Assembly (NCBI GenBank): GCA_944324095.1 | Contig: CALUUY010000004.1 | Location: 1-55,000, forward strand | DNA length: 55,000 nucleotides | Direction: 5' to 3' | From: an uncultured Elusimicrobiales bacterium | GTDB lineage: Bacteria; Elusimicrobiota; Elusimicrobia; Elusimicrobiales; Elusimicrobiaceae | Shown here: positions 35,434-45,651 of the stretch, piece by piece | Position numbering within the stretch: the first letter of the stretch is position 1 | Layout of the letters: the number at the start of each line of letters is the position of its first letter | The notes under the pieces: generated by a model | The model's input: the letters and a program-made list of their open reading frames with translations, nothing else | The model's database searches: none | What the model was told of the DNA's origin: nothing | Program-made: the position numbers and the translations under genes

Positions 35434-36693
35434 ATGAAAACATTTTCCATTTATTTACTCTTAAATCTGTTTATATGGATACCGGTTTGTGCACAAAGCC
35501 AGGGGAAGCCCTCCTTGCCGGATTTGGAAAAAGCGCAACAAACACTTAAAAATTTACCGCTACGTTTAGAAGATAAATCAATTCTGGAACAAGCCAAAAA
35601 GTACCTTGATAATCTGCCGGATATCGCGCCGGATCAGACGAATATTTCATATAAAACAAGAATGTTTTCTAATGCTGGCTACTCGCTAAAAGACATTCTG
35701 GTTTGGCTGCCACATTTAATAACCCAAATGCCAGAACAACAAAGGCCGTTGTTTAAACGCGCCAGCCAGCTCTTACAGCAAAAAGAGCCTCCTGCGGAAA
35801 AAATTCCAGCAGTCCTGTCGCAAAATAACGTCTTTCAAGCTATGTATAAGCATTTACAACAGCACAAGCCGCTGGTTTTAAATAAAAACGCCGCCAACCC
35901 TTTTTTATTGCCTGATTTACAAAAAGCACGCGTTATTTTAATTGGGGAAGACCACACCATGCACTACCCCGCCGAACAACTGGTGGAATATTTAATTGCC
36001 TATAACCAATCCGCCCCAGAAAATGAGCGTATTACCCATTTATTTGTGGAATTTTCCTATCAGGCAAATATTGCTATGGAATTTATCCGTGCCCACATAA
36101 AAGAACTGCCTGAAAAAGAGTTATTAAAACAAGCGGTGGAATACGCTCATAAACAGATGGGGAAAAAATACATTCCCGCCACTTTGCGGGAAGAGGTGCG
36201 CTGGCTGCGTTTAGGCTATCGGCTGCTTAAAGAACAGCCGGATGTAGTGTTCTATGCCTATGATCTTCCTAACCCGTCTATTGACGTTCGTAATGCTGCC
36301 GCCAAGGCCTTTCTGCGGGCTGGGTATGAACAGCCTAATACTAAAATGGTATTTATCGGTGGGGCGTTGCATGTTTTGCGCTACAACTTAAATACCCCAT
36401 TGTTTTCTGACCCCAGTATTAATGCCCAAAACTCCTTAGCTAACACATCGGGAATCCCCCCGCAGGAAGTTGTTTCTATTTTTGCTGTGGGCGGTATGCC
36501 GTGGAAAGAAGATGCCCAGTTATATGGCTCTAGTTCTGCCCAAGTAGATCTCTATCATTTTGTAATTGAGTTTTACAAAAACACCCCCAAAAATCTGGCT
36601 GTTAAAACGCCTGCCAAGCTGTTTGGGTTTGATTACTATTTTTATTTTGATGTCACTAAAAAACCTTTTGTTACAGACGCTAATACTTGGTAA
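35434..36693 (+). CDS. Secreted protein with ChaN/EreA-like domain
   Basis: This 419-residue protein has a signal peptide (residues 1-20, ending PVCAQ). A helical N-terminal part (25-165) precedes a domain with ARVILIGEDHTMHYPAEQL, then THLFVEFSYQANIAMEFI, and later KMVFIGGALHVLRY. The order of a beta-strand ending in GE-x-H, a following acidic strand and a late G-G-A-L-H motif recalls the ChaN/EreA/TIKI superfamily. Those include haem-binding lipoproteins, erythromycin esterases and proteases. Which of these applies is unknown. There is no Shine-Dalgarno; TAAAAT lies 7 nt upstream of the ATG. It resembles the secreted proteins at 3643 and 27771 in its N-terminal style. Confidence 0.65.
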   Translation: MKTFSIYLLLNLFIWIPVCAQSQGKPSLPDLEKAQQTLKNLPLRLEDKSILEQAKKYLDNLPDIAPDQTNISYKTRMFSNAGYSLKDILVWLPHLITQMPEQQRPLFKRASQLLQQKEPPAEKIPAVLSQNNVFQAMYKHLQQHKPLVLNKNAANPFLLPDLQKARVILIGEDHTMHYPAEQLVEYLIAYNQSAPENERITHLFVEFSYQANIAMEFIRAHIKELPEKELLKQAVEYAHKQMGKKYIPATLREEVRWLRLGYRLLKEQPDVVFYAYDLPNPSIDVRNAAAKAFLRAGYEQPNTKMVFIGGALHVLRYNLNTPLFSDPSINAQNSLANTSGIPPQEVVSIFAVGGMPWKEDAQLYGSSSAQVDLYHFVIEFYKNTPKNLAVKTPAKLFGFDYYFYFDVTKKPFVTDANTW

Positions 36694-36812
36694 AACGAGC
36701 TGTGGAAGTACTTATAACTTAAAAATCTATCTATCAATAAGGCGTTTCATATTAACCTTGAATAAGAATAATACCACCTTGCCCAAGTTGTTGTGTGTTT
36801 AGACAGGAGAAT

Positions 36813-36914
36813 ATGTCCCTCAAAGAACAACCAAAACCTCTGTTTATTAAAAAGGGCTACTTGTTTTATCAAATAATATCTGACTCCAAGAGTTCTCCCA
36901 CTTTTCTTTATTAA
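36813..36914 (+). CDS. Short ORF with strong ribosome site, possible truncated gene
   Basis: A good AGGAGA site with 2-5 nt spacing precedes ATG 36813. The frame gives 33 residues, starting MSLKEQPKPLFIKKGYLF, and then runs antisense into the end of the glycosyltransferase gene at 36847. This looks like the 5' end of a gene cut off when the adjoining sequence arrived, or a small peptide gene. No family is recognised. Confidence 0.3.
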   Translation: MSLKEQPKPLFIKKGYLFYQIISDSKSSPTFLY

Positions 36915-38085
36915 ATACTGCAGCAGTTTTAATGGCATTATTCGCCAAGAAGTTTCGCAAATTTGGAGAAGTAATCAGTTCTTTTAAAGCCTTATAAAAG
37001 TCTTCTACAGTAGGATTTACCAAAAGGCCATTAAAATCTTTTAACACAATATTGGATAATCCCCCCACATTACTAGATACCACAGCACATCCACTAGCCA
37101 TTGCCTCCAAACAAGATAATGAGGTTCCTTCAGAATAAATGGTAGGAATAACTGCAATTTGAGCAGAACGATAGAAATCAGGCATTTTATCTGGCGAAAC
37201 GGCTTCTTGAATAATTCTATTTGGAAACTCCTGTTTTAATAGCATTATATCTTTAGCAATATCACCTTCATGAACAAAACCAACAAAAGCCAATTCTGTG
37301 TTTGGAAATTCCTGCAAAATGCGCCTCCCAGCTTGAGACATTATCCAATACCCTCTATAATAGGTTGCTCTTCTAGGGAAAAGGATTCGTATTTTAGTGC
37401 TACATTCAGCGGCAGGATAAAATTTAGAAACATCTACGTAATTAGGAATGTAACACATTGTTTTATTCCTAGAATAGGAAGGGAAGGTACATCTAAACCA
37501 AGATAACGTATTCACATCTACAGACAATAAAACTTTACAATTAATTAACTGGGTTTTAATTTCTTGTAAACGCTTGGATTCCAAAGTTTTAGTTTTAAGA
37601 TAACTATCCCAAAAAACACCATGACTAAGAAGCAAACTTCCCGGAGTCATTCTATAACTACCAGCACACCAAGAATACAATACCTGATATGAACAGACGC
37701 TCTTCAAGAGATAAAAAATTTCCTCATAATACACTTCTGCACTTCCTACTGTAGGAATAGCAACCACCCATAAATTTTTCTCTTTTCTCACCCATAAACC
37801 TTCATTAGAATATTGCAGTAAAACACAGTTTATTTCTTTACGTTGGCACAAGTCAGCTAAATCCAACATATATTTCTCTGCCCCGCCATAAAAGCAACAT
37901 TGGCCTTTAGGGTCAAAAAATGAGGCTTGGATTATAAAAACAGTCTTTTCCGTTGCTATTTTCTCCCTCCTCATCCATTCAAATAAAAAAGCTTTATAAC
38001 ACCTAGCGAGCCAAAAACCTCTAACTCGAACAGGAAGGATTCGTAAAAATTTTTGCCACCAAAAATGTTTTAGTATTTTCTTCAT
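36847..38085 (-). CDS. Glycosyltransferase, family 4
   Basis: This 412-residue GT-B enzyme ends the surface-glycan cluster. It has an unusual basic, aromatic N-terminus (about 35 residues), then VFIIQASFFDPKGQC and GGAEKYMLDLADLC as acceptor domain. The donor domain contains ILFPRRATYYRGYWIM, FVGFVHEGD, and TIYSEGTSLSCLEAMASGCAVVSSNVGG, which carries the E-x7-E pair. Its ATG overlaps the wecB stop (ATGA), so the genes are coupled. Base composition is more A+T-rich than core genes. The sugar and linkage are unknown. Confidence 0.85.
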   Translation of the reverse strand: MKKILKHFWWQKFLRILPVRVRGFWLARCYKAFLFEWMRREKIATEKTVFIIQASFFDPKGQCCFYGGAEKYMLDLADLCQRKEINCVLLQYSNEGLWVRKEKNLWVVAIPTVGSAEVYYEEIFYLLKSVCSYQVLYSWCAGSYRMTPGSLLLSHGVFWDSYLKTKTLESKRLQEIKTQLINCKVLLSVDVNTLSWFRCTFPSYSRNKTMCYIPNYVDVSKFYPAAECSTKIRILFPRRATYYRGYWIMSQAGRRILQEFPNTELAFVGFVHEGDIAKDIMLLKQEFPNRIIQEAVSPDKMPDFYRSAQIAVIPTIYSEGTSLSCLEAMASGCAVVSSNVGGLSNIVLKDFNGLLVNPTVEDFYKALKELITSPNLRNFLANNAIKTAAVFNKEKWENSWSQILFDKTSSPF

Positions 38086-39203
38086 TTTATTATGCTTTCC
38101 TGTAGAATAGAAATAATTTTAGCTGCACTATTTCCATTCCCATACGGATTATTACCAAGGGATAAACGTGTAGCTTCTTTGGGCAAGTTCAAAATTTGCA
38201 CGGCTTCATCAAAAATATTTTCTTCTTTGGTCCCGACTAGTTTGACCATCTTAGCACGTACTCCTGCCATTCGTTCAGTTTTATAACGTAAGACTAATAC
38301 CGGACACGAAAAACTGAGAGCCTCTTCCTGAATACCTCCCGAATCAGTAAGAATTAGTTTGGCTGCTTTCATTAAACAAACCAATTCTGGATAAGAAAAC
38401 CCATCAGTTAATATGAAATTAGACAAAGAGGATAACTGCTCTCTTACAAATTTATTCACATTCGGATTAGGATGCACTGGACAGACAAACTGATGATCAG
38501 GAAACTTTTCCCCCAATCGTTTTAATGCGTGTAAAATTTCTTGTAAACGAACGCCATGATTCTCTCGCCTATGAACAGTAACCAACACTGATTTATCATT
38601 AAATATAATGTTCATTTTTTCAAGTCTAGCCCGCGCTATTTTTAATTGTTCGTCTGTAATGCTTAACAAACTATCTATAACCGTATTACCAACTACATAC
38701 AAACCCTGTGTAATATTTTCTTTAATTAAACTATCTTGATCTTCAATAGTGGGGCAAAAATGCCACGTAGCCAGCCTAGAGATCATCTGTCGCAAACCTT
38801 CTTCTGGGAAGGGTTCTCGTAAATTATAACTACGTAGCCCCGCTTCAATGTGCGCTATAGGAATATGATTATAAAAAGCAACTAAAGCCCCACAAAATGC
38901 CGTCATTGTATCCCCTTGTACTACAACAACAGAAGGATTTTCTTGTTGAACAATCATATTCAAAGACATAAGCAAACGGGCTTGCAATTGAGGCAATGTT
39001 TGATTTTCTTTCATAATATCTAAAGCATAATCGGGTTTGATATTAAAAAAACTTAATGTAGATTGAGAAAGTTCTCTTTGTTGCTCTGTATTAACAACCA
39101 GTGCTTTTAACAAAGGGTGGGCCTGCACTTCTTTAATAATGGAAGCCATTTTTATAACTTCCGGACGAGTACCTAAACAAAATAATATATGAGAACCTTT
39201 CAT
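38082..39203 (-). CDS. wecB: UDP-N-acetylglucosamine 2-epimerase
   Basis: The enzyme converts UDP-GlcNAc to UDP-ManNAc, a precursor for surface polysaccharides such as enterobacterial common antigen-like glycans. The 373-residue protein has GTRPEVIKMASII at the N-terminus, VQGDTMTAF, HIEAGLRSYNL followed by PFPEEGLRQMI, VTVHRRENHG, and LTDSGGIQEEA, all signatures of the non-hydrolysing epimerase. Length is normal. It lies in a row with two GT2 genes upstream and a GT4 gene downstream, so ManNAc or a derivative is probably part of the glycan made by this cluster. No UDP-ManNAc dehydrogenase is present. Confidence 0.95.
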   Translation of the reverse strand: MKGSHILFCLGTRPEVIKMASIIKEVQAHPLLKALVVNTEQQRELSQSTLSFFNIKPDYALDIMKENQTLPQLQARLLMSLNMIVQQENPSVVVVQGDTMTAFCGALVAFYNHIPIAHIEAGLRSYNLREPFPEEGLRQMISRLATWHFCPTIEDQDSLIKENITQGLYVVGNTVIDSLLSITDEQLKIARARLEKMNIIFNDKSVLVTVHRRENHGVRLQEILHALKRLGEKFPDHQFVCPVHPNPNVNKFVREQLSSLSNFILTDGFSYPELVCLMKAAKLILTDSGGIQEEALSFSCPVLVLRYKTERMAGVRAKMVKLVGTKEENIFDEAVQILNLPKEATRLSLGNNPYGNGNSAAKIISILQESIIK

Positions 39204-39208
39204 TTTTT

Positions 39209-40252
39209 CTACCTATTTAATCCAATCTTAAAACCAAGTAAATATAAATATTTTTTTCCATTTTCTTTACGAATTGCAAATACTTTTTCCCAAGAAGAAG
39301 GCTGGTTATAGCTTGTTAATATCTTAGTATTCCCGGTAGCAATAGCTTTTAACTTCGTATTTTGGTGCACAAATGGGATGGTCGCTAAAATTGCTTTTCC
39401 TTGTTCAAGCACAATAGGTTTATTCTCCGGTGTGACATGATCAAAATCCATAAAAAATAAACTTAAAAATATTTTCTGCAACAGAGACTCATATCGATAA
39501 AACAAACCTTTAGAAATATAAAAACACGCTATATCTTGAGCGACCTTGGCACCATTTGCCCGCGATGACAGCTCATTGCGAAACAACTTGCCCATAATAG
39601 AATCATTTCTTTGCGTATAAAAATAATATTTATCTTGAATAAAATATGCGGTATGACAAAAAGGAAAATATTTCCAAAAGAATCCATTATCTTCAAATAA
39701 ACATTTTTCAGGAAACAAAATAGAATGTTGGCGTATAATATCTGCTCTAAATAACTTATTCCATACCGTTACCGGAGTTTTACGGGCAATTTTAACCCCA
39801 AACTTACATTTTCCTTTAAAGCGAATTCTCAAATGACTATTTTGAATAGAAAGCCACGGAATCAACTCATTATTCTCCGCTATAGCTTGAGCCCCCCAAC
39901 ATATTAAATCCAAATTAGGCCTTATATGTTTTGCTAACTGTGTTAAAAAGTTTTCTGCCACATAATCATCACTATCTACAAACATTAACCATTGCCCTTT
40001 AGCAGCTTCTATACCTCTATTTCTAGCGCTAGAAAGTCCCTGGTTTTTTTGAAAGATCACTCGAAGGTTATCCCTATATTTTTTTTCATATTCGGCCAAT
40101 ATTAAAGCAGACTCATCAGTGGAACCGTCGTTAACACAAATGACTTCTACAGAAGGAAACGATTGCTTTAAAATACTATCCAAACAACGGGGCAAATAAC
40201 GCTGTACATTGTAAACAGGAACAATAATAGAAATTAAAGGGTTACTCTTCAT
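39209..40252 (-). CDS. Glycosyltransferase, family 2 (GT-A fold)
   Basis: This 347-residue enzyme begins with the classic GT2 start, ISIIVPVYNVQRYLPRCLDSIL, followed by EVICVNDGSTDES, ARNRGIEAAKG, and the metal-binding DSDD at residues 93-96. The C-terminal half (about 200-347) is unlike common GT2s and contains an extended basic region. It overlaps the end of the upstream GT2 gene by 11 bp and ends 5 bp before wecB. Its donor is unknown. Confidence 0.88.
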   Translation of the reverse strand: MKSNPLISIIVPVYNVQRYLPRCLDSILKQSFPSVEVICVNDGSTDESALILAEYEKKYRDNLRVIFQKNQGLSSARNRGIEAAKGQWLMFVDSDDYVAENFLTQLAKHIRPNLDLICWGAQAIAENNELIPWLSIQNSHLRIRFKGKCKFGVKIARKTPVTVWNKLFRADIIRQHSILFPEKCLFEDNGFFWKYFPFCHTAYFIQDKYYFYTQRNDSIMGKLFRNELSSRANGAKVAQDIACFYISKGLFYRYESLLQKIFLSLFFMDFDHVTPENKPIVLEQGKAILATIPFVHQNTKLKAIATGNTKILTSYNQPSSWEKVFAIRKENGKKYLYLLGFKIGLNR

Positions 40253-41168
40253 AGATCTGATTTCCCAGACTAAACAGCTTGGTATCTGACACTTTTAAAC
40301 AGGATTTTTCCTCTCGACGTTTCTGTTTTATTTGAGGATACAAACGAATACATTCAAACAAGGCCTTAAAATTGACAGATAATACCAACCACATAATGTG
40401 ATTTATTAATAATTTCTTAGAATGAATGTTTTTCCACACAAACAAAATACGATTCCGTTTAGACAAGAACTTTGTTCGCGCACTTTTTTTACTATTTATA
40501 GTACCACCGCATTTGTGACGTGGAGTAGTATCTGCAGCGTACGTAATTTTCCACCCTCTTTTTAAACCACGATAAGCCAAATCCGTTTCTTCCAACAAGT
40601 AAGGATCTAACAAAACATCAAAGCCACCTAACTCCTCAAATTTACTGCGTTTACAAGCAAAATATGCCCCCTGTACGCCCCAAGACAAATAAGAAGCATT
40701 TTCTTTTAATTTCGAATTAAATACATTTACTGTAAAACGAGGATAGCCTCTTTTCCAATGCAACAATTTGATACCATCCAATTGCTCCGGTTCATTCATA
40801 TTTTTCGGATAAGCAGCATACCCAGCGCAAGTGACACAAAAAATATTGGGTTTTAAATATTTGGCCAAAGTATCAAAAAAAGTCTCTTCCAAAAACACAT
40901 CATTATCTAAAAAAACCAGCCACTCGCCTTTAGAATGAGACACGCCCCAGTTACGTGCAGAACAAGCGCCTTGCGAAGGATTTTGCAAAACTTGAATCGA
41001 AGGGAATAATTCTAATAATAATCTGGATGTATTATCGGTTGAATTATCATCAACAACTGTAATATCAACCTCACAAAAAGATTTTTGGGCTGCTTTAATA
41101 ACGGTAGGCAAACATTCTTTTAAATGATGTAAGCCATTTTTAGAAGGGATAACAACAGATATTTTCAT
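40242..41168 (-). CDS. Glycosyltransferase, family 2 (rhamnosyltransferase-like)
   Basis: This 308-residue GT2 is the first gene of the glycan cluster. It has ISVVIPSKNGLHHLKECL, ITVVDDNSTDNT, ACSARNWGVSHSKG, the metal-binding DND at residues 88-90, and a later stretch GAYFACKRSKFEELGGFD followed by EETDLAYRGLKRGWKI, whose ED-type motif is common in rhamnosyltransferase-like GT2s. The C-terminal ~70 residues hold one hydrophobic segment and a basic tail. The A+T-rich upstream region presumably carries the cluster promoter, but I cannot single one out. Confidence 0.87.
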   Translation of the reverse strand: MKISVVIPSKNGLHHLKECLPTVIKAAQKSFCEVDITVVDDNSTDNTSRLLLELFPSIQVLQNPSQGACSARNWGVSHSKGEWLVFLDNDVFLEETFFDTLAKYLKPNIFCVTCAGYAAYPKNMNEPEQLDGIKLLHWKRGYPRFTVNVFNSKLKENASYLSWGVQGAYFACKRSKFEELGGFDVLLDPYLLEETDLAYRGLKRGWKITYAADTTPRHKCGGTINSKKSARTKFLSKRNRILFVWKNIHSKKLLINHIMWLVLSVNFKALFECIRLYPQIKQKRREEKSCLKVSDTKLFSLGNQIYEE

Positions 41169-41634
41169 ATTTTTAATAACAATGCATTAGGTAATTAGGT
41201 GTTATAAAACACACTACAGCAAAACATGCTTAAGGACACACTTTGCTACATATTTTTAATCTTATAAGACCCTCTTTATAAATAATGATATAACATTATA
41301 ATTTATTAACTTATTATAGTTATATAATATATTATTTTTATATTATTTTACACAACTAATAAAGATTATTCTAAGATTAGAAAAGTTGTAAGATTGATAG
41401 GTTAAACGTCCAATTGTCTCACAGTTATAAATAATAGCTTTAGTCTAGAAGGAGCATATTTTATGGAATAAAAAGAGTGAAACTCTTTTCGACGCAGCTT
41501 CGGACGACGTTATCGGCAAGAGCCATTATCGGCAGGATTTAGGAAACAAAAACACAGTTTAAAGGCATACTGCTCAGCCCTAAAAATATAGTTTGTTTTT
41601 AAAAAAGAATTAGTCAAAGCGGTAATTAAAATAT
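41169..41634. other. A+T-rich region upstream of the glycan cluster
   Basis: About 465 bp contain no gene I can support. On the plus strand an AAGGAG precedes a two-codon ORF (ATG GAA TAA at 41463), which looks like a chance or decayed start. A small hairpin AAAGAGT/ACTCTTT (41473-41489) and a doubled TTATCGGCA (about 41510 and 41527) are visible. Confidence 0.45.
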
Positions 41635-41660
41635 AAAAAACCCCAGCCTTACAGCTAGGG
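41635..41660 (-). terminator. Second (distal) terminator of the NlpE-like gene
   Basis: A weak stem with one bulge (CCC-AGC/GCT-GGG) is followed on the minus strand by TTTTTT, just beyond the stronger hairpin. Confidence 0.5.
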
Positions 41661-41663
41661 CGT

Positions 41664-41695
41664 GAAAAAAGCCGCTCTTATGTATAAGAGCGGCT
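41664..41695 (-). terminator. Intrinsic terminator of the NlpE-like gene
   Basis: An 11-bp stem AGCCGCTCTTA/TAAGAGCGGCT with a 4-nt loop is followed on the minus strand by TTTTTC. Confidence 0.9.
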
Positions 41696-41713
41696 GGTTA
41701 ATGGTTAAAAGAG

Positions 41714-42178
41714 TTATTTTTTACGCAATATGTAATGTGCCGCCAAAGCGCCTGTAATAGGTTTTTGATCCATTGTCAACATAACAGCAGCATTTTCTTC
41801 TAAGCGAAAATAGCGGGGAGTGTCACCCGTTTCCAATAGCGTAAGCACGCCGTTTTCCACCTTAAATGTACCTTGTTGGGTAAAAGCAGTATCGCGTTCT
41901 AAGTACACTTCGTTTAACTGGAAAGAACCATCCTTATATAATGTAAGTGTAGTTTGAATACCGGGGCAGTCTGCTGCCGGTAATACGCCTTCATAAACAC
42001 TCTGCACCTCTTTGGAAGGGGCCTGTTGGGCCGTAGCTGGAGCTTCGGCAGGCTGTTGTATTTCTTCTTGCACAGCCGGTTCCAATAATCCGTCCTGCGC
42101 TTCTTGATCCAACGTACCAAACCACACCAACCCGGCGGCAAACACAATCACCACTGCTATTAATAAATATTTTTTCAT
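41714..42178 (-). CDS. NlpE-like protein with membrane anchor in place of lipobox
   Basis: NlpE is an outer-membrane lipoprotein that reports surface or lipoprotein stress to the Cpx system. The 154-residue protein has the NlpE N-terminal domain at about 62-150: YEGVLPAADCPGIQTTLTLY, then DGSFQLNEVYLERDTAF. Two features are unusual. The first Cys of the family's C-x-x-C is replaced by Ala (PAADC), and the N-terminus is a hydrophobic helix without a lipobox cysteine, so it is probably anchored by a single helix. A Gln/Pro/Ala-rich linker joins the two parts. AAGGAG precedes the ATG. Composition is core-like, in contrast with the A+T-rich flanks. Confidence 0.78.
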   Translation of the reverse strand: MKKYLLIAVVIVFAAGLVWFGTLDQEAQDGLLEPAVQEEIQQPAEAPATAQQAPSKEVQSVYEGVLPAADCPGIQTTLTLYKDGSFQLNEVYLERDTAFTQQGTFKVENGVLTLLETGDTPRYFRLEENAAVMLTMDQKPITGALAAHYILRKK

Positions 42179-42633
42179 AAAATCTCCTTAAAAAAACTAT
42201 TATTGTTATTCTATCAAACTTGTTAGCCCTCTAAAAGAACTCACAAAACTCCTTTCTCTCCAGAACACCCACCTGCTATAAATACCTAAAACATAACCCT
42301 ACAATTTAGCATCTTCTAGGTTATGCATAAACATAAATTTCCATAGCCTAGGCAATTATATATTAAACTTATCCGATGCAGAAATATTAAATACTTAGTT
42401 TATCACCCTCAAACCTGCTATAAATAATATTTCTAGCGGGGCTGAGGGTTGGAGAGAACAACAAGATTATTTCGTTTTTTTACTATCTTTTTTGTAAATT
42501 TTGATTTTCTTTACATCATTATTATGGTAATTATGCTTCAGTCTTTACATTAAAACTAATAATTAATATCTAACATATGCAACTAAAAAACAGAATACAA
42601 CACAAAACATAAGCAACATAACTAGATAAAATA
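42179..42633. other. A+T-rich intergenic region with one long hairpin
   Basis: About 455 bp without coding signal separate the NlpE-like gene from the YLDPGTGS operon. A two-part stem, CCCTCA/TGAGGG plus CC-GCTA/TAGC-GG inside (42406-42448), stands out. It is not followed by a T-run on the plus strand. Confidence 0.5.
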
Positions 42634-42639
42634 TATAAT
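42634..42639 (+). promoter_or_regulatory. -10 box placed for a leaderless mRNA (YLDPGTGS operon)
   Basis: A TATAAT lies exactly 6 nt upstream of the ATG at 42646, with no ribosome site between. Confidence 0.6.
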
Positions 42640-42645
42640 AAACAT

Positions 42646-42825
42646 ATGAAATATATTCTCCTTTCATTTCTATTAATGTGTTCTTTACCTGCCTATGCAT
42701 ACTTGGATCCAGGAACAGGCAGTATGTTTCTCCAAGTTTTATTAGCTAGCTTTTTAGCCGTTTTATATGCAATCAAGCTTTTTTGGAAAAATATTAAAAA
42801 CTTTTTTACTAGCCTTCATAAATGA
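42646..42825 (+). CDS. Small exported membrane protein with YLDPGTGS motif, 59 aa
   Basis: The protein has a signal-peptide-like N-terminus (MKYILLSFLLMCSLPAYA), followed by YLDPGTGSMFLQ, a hydrophobic helix (VLLASFLAVLYAIKLFW) and a short basic tail. I know this layout as a recurrent small protein of unknown function that lies beside sulfatase-like and methyltransferase genes in surface-glycan regions; this is recollection, not a search result. Its stop codon overlaps the next ATG (ATGA), so it is coupled to the methyltransferase gene. TATAAT lies 6 nt upstream. Confidence 0.8.
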   Translation: MKYILLSFLLMCSLPAYAYLDPGTGSMFLQVLLASFLAVLYAIKLFWKNIKNFFTSLHK

Positions 42826-44180
42826 AAAAAATATTTTCTTCTTTTAAAGATCCGGCAGGCTTTGTTTATACACAAAATTCGGTTTTATATAGAAAAATAA
42901 ATAAAACCTATTTAGATGTTTACGAAAAATGTAAAAACAGCGGGCTATATGAGGTTCTATTTAAAAAAAATTTGTTAATTCCCCACACAGAAATAGCCAA
43001 AGACACCATACAACCCCAACAAATATTTATTTCATACCCTTATGAGTGGTGTTTTTCCCAACTAAAAGACGCCGCCTTGGCAACACTTGAAATTGAGCAA
43101 ATAGCTTTAGATTATGGTATGACGTTAAAAGACGCCACACCCTTTAATATACAATTTCTAAATGGCAATCCGTTGTTAATAGACACCTTATCCTTTGAAC
43201 CTTTTGAAAACAAACCCTGGGACGCTTATAAACAGTTTTGTCAAACCTTTCTAGCACCGCTGGCGATGATGTCTTACATTGACATTAGAATTGCTCCCCC
43301 GTTATTAAAAGAATATCTAAACGGGATTCCTTTGGATTTAGCCAAAAGATTGCTTCCTCTCCGTGCGTTCTTTAAGCTAGGGCTATTTATACACATCTTT
43401 CTTCATAATTACAATGAGGCCAAATACAATAAACAGTTCTATAAAATAAAAGAAGCCGATCTGGTTTTCTCCAAATTTCAAATGCTTGCACTTATTGATA
43501 ACCTAAAATCCACTATACAGGCCCTCAAACCACACAAGCAAAAAACCCAATGGCAGGATTATTATCAATTTTCTTCTTATACTGCAGAGGACTTAAAAAT
43601 AAAAAATGATTTACTGTTATCCTTTATCCAAACCATTCATCCAGACAATATTTGGGATTTCGGTGGAAATATCAGTCTGTTCTCGAAAAATATCGCCCAG
43701 TTAAATATTAACACTATTTCGTTAGACATTGATTCTATAGCCGTTGAAAAAGCCTACCAAGCCTTAAAGAATTCCCATTTGCCAGTCCTTCCGCTTATTA
43801 TGGACTTGACCAATCCCTCTCCGGCTCTTGGCTTTGCGCATCAAGAACGGGATAGCCTAAACAACAGAAAAAGAGATAATAGCTGCATTTTATGTCTAGC
43901 CTTTATACATCATCTTGCAATCAGTTACAATATTCCGTTTGAACTGATAGCTCAATATTTTTCTGCTTTTGCAAAACATCTTATCATTGAATTTGTTCCC
44001 AAAACAGACATACAAACACAAAAACTTTTGCTTAATAGGAAAGACGTCTTTGGTAATTATAATCTAAACACCTTTATACAAGCATTTAGCCAGTTTTACA
44101 CAATAAAACAACAACAAGAAATCGCTCATACGAACCGTATTCTCTTTGTAATGGAAAGCAAAAATGTTTCGGTTAAATAA
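42822..44180 (+). CDS. NoeA-like SAM-dependent methyltransferase, two-domain
   Basis: This 452-residue protein has two parts. The N-terminal half (about 1-230) contains GMTLKDATPFNIQFLNGNPLLIDTLSFEPF, which recalls the catalytic and metal loops of kinase-like folds. The C-terminal half (about 265-450) has a Rossmann-type methyltransferase core: DNIWDFGGNISLFSKNIA as motif I, TISLDIDSIAVEKAY as the acidic strand, and CILCLAFIHHLAIS further on. The combination matches proteins annotated NoeA-like (nodulation) in other genomes. The substrate is unknown; a surface glycan is likely from the neighbours. It overlaps both flanking genes. A+T-rich. Confidence 0.72.
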   Translation: MKKIFSSFKDPAGFVYTQNSVLYRKINKTYLDVYEKCKNSGLYEVLFKKNLLIPHTEIAKDTIQPQQIFISYPYEWCFSQLKDAALATLEIEQIALDYGMTLKDATPFNIQFLNGNPLLIDTLSFEPFENKPWDAYKQFCQTFLAPLAMMSYIDIRIAPPLLKEYLNGIPLDLAKRLLPLRAFFKLGLFIHIFLHNYNEAKYNKQFYKIKEADLVFSKFQMLALIDNLKSTIQALKPHKQKTQWQDYYQFSSYTAEDLKIKNDLLLSFIQTIHPDNIWDFGGNISLFSKNIAQLNINTISLDIDSIAVEKAYQALKNSHLPVLPLIMDLTNPSPALGFAHQERDSLNNRKRDNSCILCLAFIHHLAISYNIPFELIAQYFSAFAKHLIIEFVPKTDIQTQKLLLNRKDVFGNYNLNTFIQAFSQFYTIKQQQEIAHTNRILFVMESKNVSVK

Positions 44181-45651
44181 AATTAGACTTAAATTACTTT
44201 GGCTAACGCCTCTTATCTTAAGCAACACTTATATAGTATTGTATTATGTCTTAAGGAACAATTTAACCAACTACTATGTAATTTCTAACAAAGATATTTT
44301 TTATTATGTATTAGCCTGTTTCTCTGTGCTTTTTTTATTATTTAAACTATTTCGTATATTCCTTTCTTATAAAAAAGCCGCATTAATGCTTTTTATGCTT
44401 CAAGGGCTAATATTCTATTTTAATAACTCATTTCAACCTTCAGAGCAACCTTTGCTGTTATTTCACGAATTACTTATTCCCTGTCTTTTATTAATAGTCT
44501 ATTTTCTATTATGGAAAAACTGTCACCATCGAATTATCTATAAAATCATCAATTTTGTAGGTATTTGTTTATTATGTATATGCTTACTCAATAACCTTGT
44601 ACCTGGGTATCGTTATGTAAATGCAATACGTAATGCCTCTAAAGCATACACCTCTTTTTTAACAGAGGATGAATGTCCTCATTTCGCGGGAGATAAAAAC
44701 ATTATTTTTATTGTCTTAGATGGACACATATCCAAGCATTGTATATCAGACCCCTATTATTTGCAAAAATATTTACAATTTGAAAAATTTTTAACAGACA
44801 AGGGCTTTTATATTGTGCCAAACTCGTTCGCCAACGACCCTTTTACTTTGTACGCGCTGCCCAGCATGCTTAATTTTAATTATTTAGATAAAATGTCTTT
44901 TAGCTACCAGGGAAATGAGTTAGTGGCTTTTTCTAAATATTTTTATAAACATAATTTAATGGCCCGATTGCTTAAAAGATACGGCTACAACGTAACACTT
45001 ATAAATAATTTTAACGTTGTATATAACAAATTCAAATCCTCTGACCAAAACTATGCTTCCTCCAAGATATTAACCAATATGCTGTTTCATGATATTAGAT
45101 TTATACCTTCTGCCTCCCATATTAAATTTACCCAATATGCTAAGGCAAAATCTTTAAATCATTCTTTATCTCTACTAAGAAAAGAGGTGAACCAAAACAA
45201 AGAGCACCCTAAATTTATTTTTATGCACTTGCTTTTTCCCCATGAACCATACGTTGTTAATGAACAGGGAAAAGTTGGTTTCTCTACCTATTTAGAACAA
45301 ATGACGTATACAGACCAAGTAATACAAACAGAAATTGAGCATATTTTAAAATACGCTTCCAACAGTATCATTATTTTAATGTCCGATCATGGATATTATA
45401 CCGATTATGAGCGTATGTCTAATTTTATAGCCCTATATACTCCAGACAAGAATTATTCCTTTTTAGGGCGAGATCCTATATCTAACGTTAACTTTTTACG
45501 AAAAGTATTCAATAAAGAGTTTAGCTGTAACTTTGCAACGTTGGAAGACGAGGTTTTCTATACCGATAATTGGGCCACACATCCCCAGCCCCAAAGGATA
45601 GCACTGGATCATACCAACCGCAACCTCCAGCCTTATCCCACGAATCGTTAA
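44164..45651 (+). CDS. Membrane protein with sulfatase/alkaline phosphatase-fold domain
   Basis: This 495-residue protein has five or so N-terminal membrane helices (about 10-160) and an extracytoplasmic domain of the sulfatase superfamily. NIIFIVLDGHISKHCIS supplies the first metal Asp, FANDPFTLYALPSMLNF contains the candidate Thr/Ser nucleophile region, KFIFMHLLFPHEPYV follows, and IIILMSDHGYYTDYERM gives the Asp-His pair. This is the layout of phosphoethanolamine/phosphoglycerol transferases, so transfer of a phosphate-linked group onto a glycan is plausible. It overlaps the methyltransferase gene by 17 bp. No terminator is evident after it; 157 bp of A+T-rich sequence follow. Confidence 0.78.
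   Translation: MFRLNKIRLKLLWLTPLILSNTYIVLYYVLRNNLTNYYVISNKDIFYYVLACFSVLFLLFKLFRIFLSYKKAALMLFMLQGLIFYFNNSFQPSEQPLLLFHELLIPCLLLIVYFLLWKNCHHRIIYKIINFVGICLLCICLLNNLVPGYRYVNAIRNASKAYTSFLTEDECPHFAGDKNIIFIVLDGHISKHCISDPYYLQKYLQFEKFLTDKGFYIVPNSFANDPFTLYALPSMLNFNYLDKMSFSYQGNELVAFSKYFYKHNLMARLLKRYGYNVTLINNFNVVYNKFKSSDQNYASSKILTNMLFHDIRFIPSASHIKFTQYAKAKSLNHSLSLLRKEVNQNKEHPKFIFMHLLFPHEPYVVNEQGKVGFSTYLEQMTYTDQVIQTEIEHILKYASNSIIILMSDHGYYTDYERMSNFIALYTPDKNYSFLGRDPISNVNFLRKVFNKEFSCNFATLEDEVFYTDNWATHPQPQRIALDHTNRNLQPYPTNR

Follow-up and report, generated by a model that had tools for sequence, protein, structure and literature searches.

An exported microprotein accompanies NoeA-type kinase-methyltransferases and NoeB-type membrane enzymes and belongs to a wider peptide superfamily

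What does a 59-residue exported peptide do when its gene overlaps that of a soluble two-domain enzyme (452 residues), which in turn overlaps that of a membrane enzyme (495 residues)? The locus that raises this question lies in a 55,000-nucleotide stretch of DNA (the window; contig CALUUY010000004.1) from an uncultured Elusimicrobiales bacterium. The three genes, here termed P, K and S, all run on the forward strand; the P stop and K start share 4 nt (ATGA), and K and S share 17 nt (Table 1). A preceding sequence-only reading had placed the three open reading frames at these positions with these overlaps, and had also assigned them one leaderless-type promoter. The latter holds in part: a TATAAT element ends 6 nt before the P start, the start is not preceded by a Shine-Dalgarno sequence, and several other window genes that lack a Shine-Dalgarno sequence have the same TATAAT layout, but a scan with the generic sigma-70 consensus listed no −35/−10 pair ahead of P. 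A leaderless start of P is plausible but unproven.

Table 1. Positions of the trio, its domains and its candidate promoter element in the window
Feature	Position	Strand	Basis
TATAAT −10-like element, candidate leaderless-type promoter	42634..42639	+	Sequence; ends 6 nt before P start
P gene, 59-aa exported single-TM microprotein	42646..42825	+	Sequence, conservation; no Pfam/NCBIfam family
P signal-peptide-like segment, 18 residues, MKYILLSFLLMCSLPAYA, ending AYA	42646..42699	+	Sequence; relatives
P YLDPGTGS motif, predicted new N-terminus, outer face of membrane	42700..42723	+	Conserved in 84 relatives
K gene, two-domain kinase-like/SAM-methyltransferase, NoeA (Lani_1194) family	42822..44180	+	Homology, alignments, model
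K residues 1-235, kinase-like domain; D104, N109, D121 invariant	42822..43526	+	Alignment of 41 relatives, model secondary structure
K residues 241-448, class I methyltransferase domain	43542..44165	+	Alignment, structure matches
S gene, membrane alkaline-phosphatase-superfamily protein, NoeB type	44164..45651	+	PF00884, conservation, model

The P-K-S cassette is accessory and was probably acquired horizontally, because it lies in a GC-poor island (about 32–40% GC over 36–45.5 kb and 33% at the trio, vs. about 47% around it) and because the K gene is absent from 36 congeneric genomes and from 24 of the same order. The low-GC region (36000–45500) holds a glycosyltransferase cluster together with the trio: two family-2 glycosyltransferases, a UDP-GlcNAc 2-epimerase and a family-1 glycosyltransferase lie upstream on the minus strand. 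A gene at 41714–42178 (−), divergent from the trio, encodes a protein with an NlpE N-terminal domain (PF04170). The earlier statement that such trios stand beside surface-glycan genes fits the glycosyltransferases of the window but not the family at large: in a census of 177 flanking proteins, glycosyltransferases and sugar epimerases numbered only a few each, and a general tie of the trio to polysaccharide loci is unsupported. The same census revealed no regulator gene recurring among the commonest neighbours, and MBOAT was not among the commonest flanking families.

Co-occurrence of the three families, proposed earlier as a check, is genuine across distant phyla. Searching the genomes of bacterial and archaeal species for K yielded 80 loci from many phyla; P is present in 78 of them (the other 2 begin at K), directly upstream of K in 69 and downstream in 5. 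As for S, 55 loci have it adjacent and 8 at another place in the locus, and several of those that lack it are truncated. In a plasmid search, homologues of K came from Planctomycetota, Gemmatimonadota, a deltaproteobacterium and alphaproteobacteria, one of them being NoeA of Sinorhizobium meliloti, and P lay beside K in all five loci examined (four by motif search, the divergent Novosphingobium one by profile). In an unbiased sample of 251 Chloroflexota genomes, P occurs in 33, K in 33 and both in 31; in all 31 the two genes are adjacent and on the same strand (Fisher p ~ 6e-35), which rejects chance linkage, and one of the two K-only genomes has a divergent P beside K after all (L127). The P-K pairing is almost certainly genuine. 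Anaerolineales loci carry a true P-K pair in a housekeeping region with no S nearby, and S is therefore not essential to the unit; P-K forms a near-obligate core, to which S is a frequent third gene. Five of these Anaerolineales loci (L011, L024, L040, L053 and L070) share a conserved chromosomal setting, in which P-K is followed by a protein of ~330 aa; the one such protein tested (L070:9453-10439) had no Pfam match.

In the window P, the YLDPGTGS motif is followed by one transmembrane segment and a basic C terminus. The family shares this plan: a signal peptide (or none), Y-[LIV]-D-P-G-[TS]-G-S, one transmembrane helix with a conserved Gln, K-x-x-W, a basic stretch and an acidic tail. Among 84 K-associated relatives, the motif D is kept in 84, Y in 82, S in 81, P and the second G in 79, and T or S in 81; the intramembrane Gln is kept in 82, an Ala directly precedes the motif Tyr in 63, and 43 have AxA. 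The motif described at the outset as fixed is thus near-fixed, and the peptide has a signal-like N terminus and one predicted transmembrane segment. P matches no annotated family in Pfam or NCBIfam. Its signal peptide and charge distribution predict that the motif end, with the Tyr, lies at the outer face and that the basic tail is cytosolic.

K has no transmembrane segments and is assigned to the NoeA/Lani_1194 family by full-length sequence similarity in both domains: it shares 31% identity with S. meliloti NoeA over 98% of the length (tblastn), as expected from the earlier description of K as NoeA-like, 43% with a Singulisphaera homologue (tblastn) and 43–51% with the aligned relatives. The two-domain architecture proposed for it likewise stands, with kinase motifs in the N-terminal half and a class I SAM methyltransferase fold in the C-terminal half. 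The former carries kinase-like LKDATPFN...IDT residues, and its D104, N109 and D121, invariant in alignments, correspond to the kinase catalytic D...N and D (D166/N171/D184 of PKA). The C-terminal domain, in a model of high confidence (pLDDT 90.6), matches class I methyltransferases, among them NodS, MePCE, BCDIN3D and WbdD, in a tie with many unrelated enzymes (Z within 1–2). WbdD, MePCE and BCDIN3D are enzymes that methylate phosphate. D279, G281, N283, D302, H363 and H364 are invariant in this domain among the 41 aligned sequences, and the window K has Ser at the usual G285, the third Gly of motif I; 26 of the 41 match a methyltransferase family in Pfam, and the window K alone has no significant Pfam match. 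The structure-search matches listed for K are to the methyltransferase domain, and its putative kinase identity derives from the motifs and from the published family assignment (PMC9758233).

S matches PF00884 at 6e-14, and its model (pLDDT 81) shows a helical membrane region to residue 165 and then an alkaline-phosphatase-superfamily catalytic domain. The membrane enzyme of the sequence-only reading is borne out in these respects; its sulfatase character is not, as the active site carries Thr. The site reads T-L-Y-A-L-P in the window, and T228 (68/68 relatives), D408 (65/65), D186 (67/69) and H409 are conserved, T228 being the predicted nucleophile and D186, D408 and H409 the predicted metal ligands. 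The best fold match is EptC (Z 22.5, 279 aligned, rmsd 3.6), YejM is second (Z 22.1), and LtaS-type enzymes and sulfatases are close behind; by sequence profile, the PDB matches are sulfatases. S shares membrane helices and an alkaline-phosphatase-superfamily domain with EptA/MCR, EptC, LtaS and YejM; a Thr nucleophile, Asp/His ligands and, in the predicted model, N-terminal helices with a C-terminal domain are features of EptA- and LtaS-type enzymes found in S. It differs from all of them in being operonic with P-K and in sharing only 9–15% identity over the aligned domain. Given the invariant Thr and the EptC/YejM/LtaS-like fold, a phosphotransferase is a likelier identity for S than a sulfatase.

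The same cassette exists in S. meliloti, where nodL is followed by an unnamed 71-aa YLDPGTGS peptide, noeA and noeB; the peptide gene overlaps noeA and is labelled 'hypothetical protein' in one record, and the S profile retrieves NoeB. K and S are thus relatives of NoeA and NoeB, with P-K-S order in both. The S. meliloti genes belong to the nod box n5 operon nodL-noeA-noeB, whereas the window cassette lies outside a symbiosis operon, lacks nodL and stands by glycosyltransferase genes in a low-GC island. In nodulation, noeA and noeB are known as host-range genes, and the nodulation-deficient strain M162 carries a truncated noeA (PMC4053727). The K family (Lani_1194) was published in 2022 as a kinase-methyltransferase with about two thousand homologues, the two domains fused in 94% and no function assigned; the neighbours Lani_1193 and Lani_1195, the latter NoeB-like with an alkaline-phosphatase fold, were kept in 65% and 38% of 816 neighbourhoods (PMC9758233). 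The earlier statement that the trio has no assigned function agrees with that report but passes over the host-range genetics of nodL-noeA-noeB.

Lani_1193-1195 of Legionella anisa resemble our trio in the K family and in conserved same-strand neighbours. The main text of that paper leaves the peptide and its motif undescribed, and its neighbour conservation of 65%/38% contrasts with the near-complete P-K linkage found here (PMC9758233). Lani_1193 is very probably P, because the region is syntenic with the acyltransferase-P-K-S order of L. saoudiensis (L084). WbdD of E. coli O9a adds a phosphate and then a methyl group to a polyprenol-linked glycan (PMC3482155), and it resembles K in joining kinase and methyltransferase in one chain and in the phosphorylate-then-methylate logic that we propose for K. 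However, WbdD has the order methyltransferase-kinase-coiled coil, reversed in K, and no P or S partner is described for it; the reversed order and the lack of significant sequence similarity between the two rule out K as a WbdD member. An Actinoplanes EPS paper was rejected as a match, as its clusters do not describe a P-K-S trio. The trio itself is already of a described, uncharacterised kind; the P superfamily is new here.

The sequence of P places it in a so far undescribed superfamily of microproteins, Y-x-(D/G)-P-x-x-G; literature searches on the peptide motifs returned nothing relevant and no publication naming this superfamily. A broader P profile, run on 349 Pseudomonadota and 246 Planctomycetota genomes, yielded 47 loci, in which the partner is K (21), S (5), a PF01663-type enzyme beside or fused to P (10) or a sulfotransferase, mostly with an arylsulfotransferase (9); two have no partner within 1.5 kb. 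P is thus adjacent or fused to a phospho- or sulfo-ester enzyme in 45 of 47 loci vs. 1 of 85 background flank windows, with a profile that was built from P members in these contexts but scores the peptide alone, not its neighbours. The L085 sequence, mis-trimmed at a spurious motif match, was left out of alignment A9.

The superfamily is varied in its partners. A YIDPNTGG variant of Chloroflexota precedes a PF01663 phosphodiesterase near a sulfotransferase; in five Chloroflexota loci (L121, L122, L123, L124 and L126), a variant peptide MYIDPNTGGILFQ (or MYIDPGTGG) in most cases directly precedes a PF01663 phosphodiesterase of ~605 aa, in L122 it is next to a Tat-type sulfatase, and sulfatases and sulfotransferases are found near some of the five. 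The P motif and transmembrane segment are also fused to the N terminus of PF01663-type phosphodiesterases (L132:6-1694, L134:1474-3162, L171, L175-L181 and L184), such fusions occurring in Desulfobacterota (L132, L134) and Planctomycetota. L133, another Desulfobacterota locus, carries P as a fusion with a domain like CDP-glycerol glycerophosphotransferases, with a Pfam match just under the cut-off; that gene follows a fused nucleotidyltransferase/choline-kinase gene, and it is possible that the two (L133:2-2820) are a phosphocholine or glycerol-phosphate decoration operon. P stands beside a sulfotransferase and an arylsulfotransferase in L135 and L136 of Desulfobacterota, L137 being similar. 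Peptides with Y-[VIS]-GPG lie between arylsulfotransferase and membrane PF13469-type sulfotransferase genes in L136, L143-L145, L149 and L151-L154, which suggests a sulfation cassette with the same type of microprotein.

We propose, as a tentative model that as a whole falls somewhat short of probable, that the trio is a NoeA/NoeB-type surface-modification cassette working across the inner membrane. P would be exported and its signal cleaved, leaving the YLDPGTGS end outside, one helix through the membrane and the basic tail in the cytosol, where it would tether the soluble K to the inner face of the inner membrane; this anchoring role is suggested mainly because P relatives are fused via the same tail to catalytic domains. 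K may place a phosphate on a membrane-linked acceptor, which is probably either a lipid headgroup or a polyprenyl-linked glycan; the second domain of K may then methylate that phosphate or a neighbouring group in a WbdD-like manner. S, with its predicted EptA/LtaS-like Thr nucleophile and metal site, would transfer or remove a phosphoester at the outer face, probably with the assistance of the YLDPGTGS end of P. The putative outcome, an altered surface molecule, is consistent with the role of noeA and noeB as host-range genes. The model is based on the near-obligate P-K linkage, the intact-looking catalytic residues, the Thr-type S and the recurrent P fusions. Against it, the partners of some P relatives are enzymes with other export routes, and P is therefore not simply an anchor for cytosolic domains; in addition, the flanking genes give no consistent glycan signal, the methyltransferase fold matches are tied, K has Ser in motif I, and S is missing from the Anaerolineales loci.

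Other readings of the trio change the substrate or the role of its members. The cassette could decorate a secreted signal or effector, the Nod factor in rhizobia and another molecule in Legionella (proposed in PMC9758233); the nod-box operon that joins noeA and noeB to nodL, the Nod-factor acetyltransferase, and the truncated noeA of M162 point that way, but the carriers are mostly free-living members of unrelated phyla for which Nod-factor synthesis is not known, and soluble cytosolic substrates would make a membrane peptide and an outer-face phosphotransferase needless, so that we consider this unlikely. A YejM-like lipid sensor at the membrane composed of S and P, with K as its cytosolic signalling output (a protein kinase/methyltransferase) rather than an enzyme of glycan chemistry, would accord with a fold match of S to YejM that nearly equals that to EptC (Z 22.1 vs. 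22.5) and with a kinase-like fold common to protein kinases. It appears distinctly unlikely given the invariant active-site Thr and metal ligands of S, the almost constant fusion of the K domains (94%, PMC9758233), which favours sequential chemistry on one substrate, and the lack of a recurrent regulator among the commonest neighbours. Formylglycine sulfatases require Cys or Ser in C/S-x-P-x-R, a position at which S has Thr in 68 of 68 sequences; this led us to reject an S1 formylglycine sulfatase and, despite the PF00884 match and the sulfatases found by sequence profile, makes it scarcely credible that S is a true sulfatase stripping sulfate from surface glycans.

P itself might be a covalent carrier, its outer-face Tyr taking a phospho or sulfo group and handing it to S or to an arylsulfotransferase. 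The precedent is DltX, a microprotein whose invariant extracellular Tyr carries an acyl group (PMC12148441), which is likewise an operon-encoded membrane microprotein with group-transfer enzymes as partners; the Tyr, predicted to be outer-face in P, is kept in 82 of 84 K-associated relatives and recurs in those P relatives whose neighbours are arylsulfotransferases or alkaline-phosphatase-superfamily enzymes. However, the motif lies at the C-terminal end of DltX and at the N-terminal end of P, and DltX works with MBOAT/SGNH partners whereas P accompanies a kinase-methyltransferase and phospho/sulfo enzymes. Moreover, the ester chemistry is unlike acyl transfer, we identified no membrane enzyme to load the Tyr from the cytosolic side, and the equal conservation of D, P, G and Y is compatible with a structural motif as well. 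We regard a carrier role as highly doubtful, and hold no better hope for its extension to the superfamily, in which P would be the common subunit of phosphate/sulfate-ester decoration systems in many phyla and, as a counterpart of DltX, its Tyr would shuttle the group from an inner to an outer enzyme.

In conclusion, the surface-modification cassette proposed here gives noeA and noeB, long-unexplained host-range genes, an overlooked third partner and a testable chemistry, and the P-K-S cassette is widespread outside symbiosis. If members of the P superfamily serve as a subunit common to phospho- and sulfo-ester enzymes, their small motif would flag many uncharacterised envelope-decoration systems.
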